From contig MGWK01000046.1 in assembly GCA_001800975.1 (NCBI GenBank), positions 1 through 64,000 on the forward strand: a DNA stretch of 64,000 nucleotides, given 5' to 3'. Of the stretch, positions 16,667-34,570 are shown piece after piece; the stretch's first letter is position 1; the number at the start of each line of letters is the position of its first letter. Under the pieces are notes generated by a model. The model was not told the origin of the DNA. It did no database searches and saw nothing but the letters and a program-made list of their open reading frames with translations. This stretch comes from Flavobacteria bacterium RIFCSPLOWO2_12_FULL_35_11 (GTDB lineage Bacteria > Bacteroidota > Bacteroidia > Flavobacteriales > Flavobacteriaceae). A program made the translations under genes and the position numbers.

Positions 16667-16674
16667 TACATTTG
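16667..16674 (+). promoter_or_regulatory. -7 promoter element, pRiA4b-like gene
   Basis: TACATTTG matches TAnnTTTG and lies 21 bases before the ATG at 16696. Its final TTG is in frame with the gene and could be mistaken for a start. Confidence 0.6.
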
Positions 16675-16695
16675 TATTTTAAATCTGTTTATAAA

Positions 16696-17196
16696 ATGGC
16701 TTACAAAATTAGGGTAGTTTTAGATGTTGAAAAAGATGTAATAAGAGATATTCTTGTTAATGAAACCATTAATCTAGAAGATTTACATTTTATTATCGCA
16801 AAATCATTTGGTTTTCAAGGGCTTGAAATGGCTTCTTTCTACAAAACCAATGAAGATTGGGAACAAGGGGAAGAAATTCCGCTTTTTGACATGTCGGAAG
16901 ACGGGACAGCCTTATGCATGAGTAATTGTTTGCTGAAGGATGTGCTGACTAAAGAAGGTGAAAAACTGATTTATGTGTATGATTTTCTTTCTATGTGGAC
17001 ATTTTTTGTTGAATTGTCCAAAATTATACCTATTGAAGAAAGTGACCTGCCAAAAGTCATGTTGTCCATAGGAGATAAGCCTGATAAAGCGCCAGAAAAA
17101 GAATTTACCGCCGAAGAGGAGTTTGATGAGTTAAATGAATTTGACGACGAAGCCGATATAGAAAATTTGGACGAGTTTGATTATGACAATTATTAA
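16696..17196 (+). CDS. Plasmid pRiA4b ORF-3 family protein
   Basis: A 166-residue protein of the pRiA4b ORF-3-like family (also named IS1096 passenger TnpR-like). It shows YKIRVVLDVEKDVIRDILV, the LEDLHFIIAKSFGFQG helix, a region with SFYKTNEDWEQGEEIPL and LIYVYDFLSMWTFFVEL. Function is unknown. The last 40 residues are strongly acidic (Asp/Glu about half). No transposase or inverted repeats flank it, so it looks like a resident chromosomal gene. ATG 16696 is chosen, since an upstream TTG falls inside the promoter element. Confidence 0.8.
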   Translation: MAYKIRVVLDVEKDVIRDILVNETINLEDLHFIIAKSFGFQGLEMASFYKTNEDWEQGEEIPLFDMSEDGTALCMSNCLLKDVLTKEGEKLIYVYDFLSMWTFFVELSKIIPIEESDLPKVMLSIGDKPDKAPEKEFTAEEEFDELNEFDDEADIENLDEFDYDNY

Positions 17197-17242
17197 AGGT
17201 TAAATCTCCTAAATGGCAGTAATATAAGGCTAAAAATGTTTT

Positions 17243-17327
17243 GAGCGTTTCCTTTCAGGTCTGGCTATCGCTACTCGCTTCGCGTAAAAACGGAAGAGCT
17301 CTAACAAGCCGCTCTATCCTTAACGCA
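17243..17327 (+). repeat. Palindromic repeat family C, copy 1
   Basis: Begins GAGCGTTTCCTTTCAGG and ends CTATCCTTAACGCA, with outer arms GCGTT and AACGC able to pair. The same layout occurs at 28550-28640 and 52442-52531. This copy has a diverged middle (CTCGCTTCGCG). Confidence 0.65.
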
Positions 17328-17420
17328 GTTTAAATGAATAATAGAAATCTTTAGACTTGAACTTCTCGGGTTAGTATTGACTGGTTTTTACTAATTTTTT
17401 ATTCCTTATCATGTTTTTTT

Positions 17421-17596
17421 ACACACCCCTAGCCCCCAATGTCATTAAGTTAAGGATATTTGTCATTCCGACAAAGGAGGAATCACATCAAACTAGCTAA
17501 CCATTATGAGATTCCTCGTGCCTCGGAAGGACAAAAAAAGAGCATCAAAGTCTTAACTTAATGACATTGCCCTAGCCCCTCTCAAGAGGGGAATTT
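17421..17596 (+). repeat. Repeat family B, split by a MITE-like insertion
   Basis: Left part ACACACCCCTAGCCCC (17421-17436) and right part CCCTAGCCCCTCTCAAGAGGGGAATTTT (from 17570; the 8-bp arms CCCCTCT and AGAGGGG pair). Joined, they match the intact block at 34536-34570. The repeated CCCTAGCCCC on both sides of the insert is its target duplication. Confidence 0.8.
17437..17569. mobile_element. 133-bp MITE-like element with 18-bp inverted termini
   Basis: The ends are perfect inverted repeats, CAATGTCATTAAGTTAAG (17437-17454) and its complement (17552-17569). A 10-bp direct repeat CCCTAGCCCC flanks it at 17427-17436 and 17570-17579. The interior is itself an imperfect palindrome (TTTGTCATTCCGA with TCGGAAGGACAAA; GGAGGAATC with GATTCCTCG). 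It has no coding capacity, so it would need a transposase supplied in trans. The source family is not identified. It lies between the pRiA4b-like gene and the hypothetical gene at 17666. Confidence 0.85.
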
Positions 17597-17665
17597 TAAG
17601 GTTGAATTTTGAACTGAACTTTACGTTTTACCATATAACATTTTGAACTTAAGATACTTATTTAA

Positions 17666-18730
17666 TTAACGAATAATATAGGTATTCACGTTTTCATAAT
17701 TTCTGACCACAAAGTCGAATCCCACTTTTAAAATTTCACCCATAGTCTTGCATTTCTTGAAATTTTTATCGTTGGTATATTTCACCAAATCCATTTTTAA
17801 TTGCTGCACTTTTTCAGGCGTTGAAATGGTATCGTTCGCCATACATTTCATTAAATTATTTATCCGGTTATGAGACCCTTTAATTCTGCGGGCAATTGCA
17901 GAACGTTCCTCTTTTTTATATTGCTCTACAGATTCTTTCTGAAGATTGTCGGCCACCATTTTAACAAACGGGTAATTTTCTTTGAAATATTGCGGAAAAT
18001 AAACCTTTAAATTCCCTTCATAACATTGCTGGTCAAAATCCATCGCACGAATTCGGTATTCAACCTGGTCAAAATCATAGGAGGCCACAATCACGTAATT
18101 ATAGGCCCGCATATCGCCCAAAAGGCGAATGACACAGCGTTCGTTAAATTTCACAAACTCTTTCGAAAGTCTTTTTTTACCGCTGGCCGACACATTTTTA
18201 AGATTTTCCTCGATAAAGATATCGCCCGGAATTCCCAATACATGCTCCTCAATCAACGTATCCTTATAAACCAAAAAATTAATATTATTGGGCGACAGAA
18301 TATGCTCCAATTCGAGTCCGTACACCCTTGAAGCATCCGCTTTTTTAATATAAATATACGTGTGGTTATCGTTTAAAATATTCCTGACTTTTACCCTAAA
18401 TGGCTTTGAATTTCCAAAAGTGCAATAGTCAATGGCATCAACATTCAAAAAAGAGATGGATTCTTCACTCCCGTCGCCATGCAAAATAATATACATCCGC
18501 TTCAGGCTTAAATCAATTTCATCGCGCTCGTGATCGGAATAATATACCCTGATCCACAACGAATCTTCTCCCTTTTTATCATACACGGCAATGCCGCCCG
18601 CAAAGCGAAGCAGATCGTCATAAAAAATAGGAATTTTAATATTTCTGTTGTATTCGGTTAGGTACGCATACAACTGATCGTTAATTGGATAAGAAGGTTT
18701 TTTTCGCGAAATTAATTTTTCTTCCATCAT
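17666..18730 (-). CDS. Conserved hypothetical protein
   Basis: A 354-residue soluble protein without signal peptide or membrane segments. I do not recognise a named domain. The first two thirds look like mixed alpha/beta (IPIFYDDLLRFAGG, SLWIRVYYSDHERDEIDLSLKR, RLLGDMRAYNYVIVASYDFDQVEYRIRAMDFDQQ), where the last segment resembles the DFDxQ ends of some kinase-like folds. The C-terminal 110 residues are helical and Lys-rich. It is divergent from the ABC transporter genes, with a TAAATTTG element 19 bases upstream. Confidence 0.75.
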   Translation of the reverse strand: MMEEKLISRKKPSYPINDQLYAYLTEYNRNIKIPIFYDDLLRFAGGIAVYDKKGEDSLWIRVYYSDHERDEIDLSLKRMYIILHGDGSEESISFLNVDAIDYCTFGNSKPFRVKVRNILNDNHTYIYIKKADASRVYGLELEHILSPNNINFLVYKDTLIEEHVLGIPGDIFIEENLKNVSASGKKRLSKEFVKFNERCVIRLLGDMRAYNYVIVASYDFDQVEYRIRAMDFDQQCYEGNLKVYFPQYFKENYPFVKMVADNLQKESVEQYKKEERSAIARRIKGSHNRINNLMKCMANDTISTPEKVQQLKMDLVKYTNDKNFKKCKTMGEILKVGFDFVVRNYENVNTYIIR

Positions 18731-34535: not shown

Positions 34536-34570
34536 TTTTACACACCCCAACCCCTCTCAAGAGGGGAATT
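34536..34570 (+). repeat. Dispersed repeat family B, intact copy
   Basis: TTACACACCCCAACCCCTCT followed by CAAGAGGGGAATT; the arms CCCCTCT and AGAGGGG form a hairpin after the exporter gene. Two other copies lie at 10354 and 17421. Confidence 0.7.

Follow-up and report, generated by a model that had tools for sequence, protein, structure and literature searches.

A short element in a 64,000-nucleotide stretch of DNA from Flavobacteria bacterium RIFCSPLOWO2_12_FULL_35_11 (the window) appears to interrupt a copy of a different repeat, which raises the question of what this element is, what moved it and why it came to rest inside another repeat. The initial annotation described an element of 133 bp whose 18-bp inverted termini match perfectly and whose flanks share a 10-bp duplication, and both features are reproduced here. 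The element occupies positions 17437-17569 with ends (CAATGTCATTAAGTTAAG) that are inverted copies of each other at 18/18 positions, and CCCTAGCCCC stands at both of its borders (17427-17436 and 17570-17579). With up to three mismatches allowed, the end 18-mer occurs at two sites in the whole window, both of them the ends of this element (shuffle mean 0.10). The strand folds at -48.9 kcal/mol versus -20.6 kcal/mol (sd 3.2) in shuffles (z = -8.85). The element has the hallmarks of a MITE: it is short (its 133 bp are far below the size of a transposase gene), carries no transposase, has inverted ends that match those of an IS, is bordered by a target duplication and exists in multiple copies. 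Judged from its sequence, it is very probably a MITE, brought into a copy of another repeat by transposition. The features of the locus, and of the uninterrupted repeat elsewhere in the window, are as follows.

17427-17436, no strand: left copy of the target duplication, CCCTAGCCCC (from the window sequence)
17437-17454, plus strand: left 18-bp terminal inverted repeat, CAATGTCATTAAGTTAAG (from the window sequence)
17437-17569, no strand: the MITE, 133 bp, the whole element foldable into one hairpin (from the fold and other copies)
17458-17540, no strand: core hairpin, approximate limits, related to a repeat present in congeners without IS4 ends
17552-17569, minus strand: right 18-bp terminal inverted repeat (from the window sequence)
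17570-17579, no strand: right copy of the target duplication, CCCTAGCCCC (from the window sequence)
17576-17594, plus strand: repeat B hairpin, CCCCTCTCAAGAGGGGAAT, undamaged by the insertion
34541-34569, plus strand: uninterrupted near-copy of repeat B, differing from the restored site by one deleted and one substituted base

Removal of the insert together with one duplicate restores the site CACACCCCTAGCCCCTCTCAAGAGGGGAAT. This sequence had been equated with the exact form of repeat B at 34536-34570, and the close resemblance stands but the identity does not: the window copy at 34541-34569 (CACACCCCAACCCCTCTCAAGAGGGGAAT) is one base shorter and carries one substitution. Four further copies of repeat B in the genome (CACACCCCTAACCCCTCTCAAGAGGGGAAT) show a single G/A difference from the restored site. 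Repeat B holds CCCTAACCCC or CCCTAGCCCC next to a GC hairpin and is therefore an expected target.

The initial annotation suggested searching the genome with the unit and its ends. In the own genome (3.56 Mb, 98 contigs), whose genus is probably Lutibacter, this recovers seven full copies of the MITE and one core-only match on contig C42, and the other copies carry the same ends. An exact 10-bp duplication flanks four of the seven, and two have near-exact duplications with one mismatch (10 bp and 9 bp). The remaining copy, on contig C29, has none and is the most diverged of the seven. At C60:46327-46603, two MITE copies lie in tandem with CCCCTAACCC on either side of each and another GC repeat adjoining; the arrangement looks as if the second MITE had inserted into the duplicate created by the first.

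The sole larger element with these ends found in the own genome is a 1437-bp IS at C93:48301-49737, which has an open 441-aa transposase frame and ends (TAATGTCATTAAGTTAAG / CAATGTCATTAAGTTAAG) that match those of the MITE at 17/18 and 18/18 positions. It is a candidate for the autonomous IS with the same ends that the search was meant to find. It also supplies the family that could not be named before: its ends and its size, together with its DDE spacing and YREK motif, point to the IS4 family and the IS4 subgroup. The transposase just passes the cut-off of the IS4-family model NCBIfam NF033592 (117.9 bits, cut-off 115), and it scores 14.1 bits against Pfam DDE_Tnp_1, under the cut-off of 23. 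Two criteria of the IS4 family agree with this protein: its YREK motif (YYMRWGVETSYGADK) fits Y(2)R(3)E(6)K, while its spacing as read from the motif positions (D-D 74 and D-E 114 residues) fits D(60-110)D(100-150)E. For the IS4 subgroup, Table 1 of PMC2266710 lists ends of the form -AATR--------WTW----, a length of 1400-1650 bp and direct repeats of 10-13 bp; the ends and the 1437 bp of the resident IS agree with this pattern and range. By these features the MITE ends and the resident IS are assigned to the IS4 family, IS4 subgroup. In place of the 10-13 bp direct repeats of the subgroup, the resident IS has no target duplication, so a recent transposition of its own is unsupported, and a single copy cannot define its habit. 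At MITEs with these ends, most duplications measure 10 bp. The short reading frames flanking the IS have no Pfam match, and one side of it may have been rearranged. A sequence search of solved structures gave no credible match for the transposase. Across the genus, a transposase match occurs in 7/38 genomes, and it is full-length and unbroken in the own genome only.

Textbook MITEs arise by internal deletion of an IS, and the window element could have arisen in this way from the resident IS on C93, since the ends match and both elements occur in one genome. However, similarity between the two is confined to the 18-19 bp ends, the other BLAST matches being 7-8-base words with E >=2, and other Lutibacter-group genomes contain the core without those ends. 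Such a derivation is accordingly improbable. The core instead resembles a hairpin repeat that is present without the ends both in the own genome (C42) and, as judged by eye, in congeners. Two of the congener core loci inspected have decayed ends rather than no ends. In the genomes G010 and G015 the core hairpin (GTCATTCCGACAAAGGAGGAATC...) occurs in clusters, and no IS4 ends are visible there.

The flanks of the copies indicate how targets are chosen. A duplication of 9-11 bp with at most one mismatch borders 48/67 copies (63 from Lutibacter and 4 others) versus 6.1% for randomly paired flanks, and no duplication fits within one mismatch at 19/67. The Lutibacter statistics cover 56 fetched copies, comprising near-full-unit alignments and six long variants, with partial and contig-edge copies dropped. 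The target set has 44 members (21 distinct), with orthologous copies of sister genomes kept in. The pattern SSSNNNNSSS fits 39/44 duplicated Lutibacter targets versus 0.66% of window 10-mers, and the consensus is roughly SSCTNNAGSS. The MITE would be nested in repeat B because of this preference, as a site of the form SSSNNNNSSS is present there.

The same targets bear on whether the element might be a structure maintained by the host, such as a terminator or an RNA-stabilising hairpin, that was spread by recombination. Both the very stable hairpin and the location of the MITE and the repeat B hairpin between convergent reading frames (16672-17196 on the plus strand and 17666-18730 on the minus strand) would suit such a role. 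Transposition is the better account of the many different duplicated targets, with 21 distinct sequences among 44, and of the recurrence of the same ends on elements with a transposase; an Rfam search of 17000-18000 with E up to 1 gave no match. We regard this explanation as very improbable, even more so than internal deletion. The MITE hairpin may have taken on a structural role later.

GC stems of at least five pairs are touched by 21/42 rejoined sites versus 19/249 nearby controls, which were not GC-matched. Among unoccupied SSSNNNNSSS sites in the window, 32/421 touch such a stem. Outside reading frames of at least 120 aa the figure is 7/26, which suggests that GC-clamped intergenic sites are rich in hairpins anyway. 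Nesting in hairpins can stem from the targeting of GC-clamped intergenic sites alone, which leaves any additional preference for hairpins unproven.

Strains with an empty site had been proposed as a further check. The flanking gene is found in 38/38 genomes, and loci are given for 30, of which 29 belong to relatives. In the same gene neighbourhood, read as the stretch beside the flanking gene, 28/29 congeners have no exact 18-bp end, and five of them (G017, G021, G023, G030 and G032) have a similar GC hairpin in the same convergent intergenic region without the MITE. No base-for-base empty site of the window locus was found among the congeners, whose hairpins differ in sequence. In another congener (G013, contig C170, at the contig edge), the GC hairpin beside the same flanking gene carries an IS end that matches 94 bp of the resident IS at 94.7% identity. 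The congener loci support an insertion in the lineage of the window and the repeated use of such sites. The earlier view that the locus holds internal evidence of transposition is thus sustained by the ends, the duplications, a resident IS with the same ends and the 28/29 congener neighbourhoods in which that end is missing.

Beyond this locus, some match to the MITE occurs in 19/38 genomes of the genus, a count that includes the own genome and core-only matches. An even draw from the family contains an element of 111-141 bp with exact ends in 3/397 genomes (own genome included), and its occurrence is therefore sporadic. Scanning for pairs of exact ends that lie 111-141 bp apart gives at least 118 copies, with 80 of 117 stretches listed by name, and the record titles include Bacteroidota, Clostridia, Lachnospiraceae, Methylococcales, Caldilineaceae, Limnohabitans and a Woesearchaeota assembly; many of these genomes are MAGs, in which contamination is possible. 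Duplications among the 118 copies listed are exact over 10 bp in 38, over 9 bp in 22 and over 11 bp in three, and 55 have no exact duplication. The plasmid collection has no match to the window MITE, and viral contigs have no exact-end element 81-171 bp long. The 18-mer CAATGTCATTAAGTTAAG is absent from the main text of the papers searched.

Between such ends, the core of the MITE varies from lineage to lineage. Among the 118 cores listed, 32 contain both core motifs of the window MITE within six mismatches, seven contain one and 79 contain neither. At the threshold used they form 18 clusters, the two largest of which span several lineages. Relatives of the core without ends occur in the fetched loci for 9/31 cores tried, and three of these nine hit one Lutibacter locus. 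Together these patterns suggest that resident repeats may have been captured between the ends; the case is best for Lutibacter, and for most lineages capture is only a possibility.

The 118 copies listed fall into two length groups (38 of 122-125 bp and 80 of 129-141 bp), with none of 111-121 or 126-128 bp. Exact-end elements overall occur in length classes of 122-125, 129-136, 143 and 158-162 bp, which are partly reminiscent of helical turns, with 160-162 bp out of phase. Helical length constraints have reportedly been found for IS50 (Goryshin 1994, as cited in PMC3464196). A 119-bp copy and out-of-phase copies of 160-162 bp with duplications in two lineages speak against helical phasing of MITE length, and the length classes may also reflect shared ancestry. 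The longer MITEs contain an extra core segment, which is about 21 bp in G040 (hairpin-like by eye) and about 27 bp in Lutibacter.

The same end occurs on other ISs. Elements with these ends (0-1 mismatch) and an exact 10-bp duplication are found in Aquimarina (two copies with identical flanks, which count as one site), Flavivirga (with a split ORF) and Caldilineaceae (two copies, of which one is decayed and sits in a repetitive site). In a Clostridia MAG, one element carries the ends without a target duplication, and the G005 element likewise has no duplication. A plasmid protein search returned 219 records, from which five elements were read: IS1675 matches at 18/18 positions at both ends, one matches at 18/18 at one end with no left end located, and the other three differ at 2-4 positions per end. 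Transposase identity to the resident IS is 36.9% for Aquimarina, 30.8% for Caldilineaceae, 26.2% for IS1675 and 17.0% for E. coli IS4. A near-identical end is found in three phyla or more, on elements whose transposases share about 26-37% identity. With the exception of the elements taken from plasmids, of E. coli IS4 and of the transposase-matched congeners, the ISs read came from genomes selected for the exact end, and this limits the strength of the shared-end pattern. Matching IS ends are expected in the 25 partner-IS genomes, which were picked for exact-end MITEs; the plasmid protein search is free of this bias.

These elements also raise the possibility that visiting ISs of this end type did most of the moving of the MITE, and the resident IS on C93 less. 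An identical or near-identical end on ISs with such different transposases, one of them on a plasmid, favors this variant, as does the distribution of transposases: a match at E 0.001 is present in 5/25 other MITE-bearing genomes, one of the five having fragments only, and 20/25 have none. Against it, the own genome itself carries an IS whose ends match and whose transposase frame is open. IS copies can also go missing from draft assemblies, and distant transposases may escape the query. We consider visiting ISs as the main movers plausible but the less likely arrangement.

The best explanation, in which we place high confidence, is that the element is an IS4-subgroup MITE moved in trans, nested by way of GC-clamped target choice, with a core from a hairpin of the host lineage. 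The MITE would be non-autonomous and depend on IS4-subgroup transposases, which would read its 18-bp ends and mobilise it in trans. Excision and insertion (cut-and-paste) would be carried out by the resident IS or a relative, with cuts staggered by about 10 bp at GC-clamped sites that are roughly SSCTNNAGSS. Intergenic sites of this kind would often fall within repeat B and similar GC-rich repeats, and this would lead to nesting. The MITE itself may have been assembled when a resident hairpin of the host lineage became flanked by two ends.

A broader and more tentative reading is that the 18-bp end CAATGTCATTAAGTTAAG acts as a shared "socket", such that unrelated hairpins of each lineage are repeatedly fitted between ends and can then be moved by any IS of the group. 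If so, a genome that lacks a partner IS could still retain its MITEs. The combination of near-invariant ends, diverged transposases and different cores would allow MITEs to move across lineages. It also makes this a tractable case of MITEs other than internal deletions of a neighbouring IS.

The window MITE is an additional representative of the IS4-subgroup MITEs, a type already known. Its closest counterpart in the ends is IS1675 of Lactococcus (named from the PLSDB annotation), which has both ends identical to the MITE ends at 18/18 positions, an exact 10-bp duplication and a YREK motif; it differs in being autonomous and in having a transposase 26% identical to that of the resident IS. The IS4 of E. 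coli K-12 has the same end pattern (-AATR...WTW), the run AGTTAAG, a length of 1426 bp and a YREK motif, but its ends have 5 and 4 mismatches in 18 positions and its transposase is 17% identical. ISPa1635-type elements of Pseudomonas have a transposase that is 29.7% identical and ends that start with CAATGTCATCAAC; these ends have 4 and 3 mismatches in 18 positions, and the one copy read has no clean duplication. MIC231 cassettes of IS231, from the Bacillus cereus group, are non-autonomous elements of an IS4-family IS, and IS231A prefers GGG-N5-CCC-like targets, so that both the dependence on an IS4-family IS and the GC-type target preference resemble the situation described here. The IS231 ends, given as CAT-------AA--TAA--- in Table 1 of PMC2266710, follow a pattern that neither the window MITE nor the resident IS shares. 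In the IS231 subgroup, according to PMC2266710, conservation of the ends and of the transposase go together, and for this reason a near-fixed end on elements with diverged transposases may be unexpected to a specialist.
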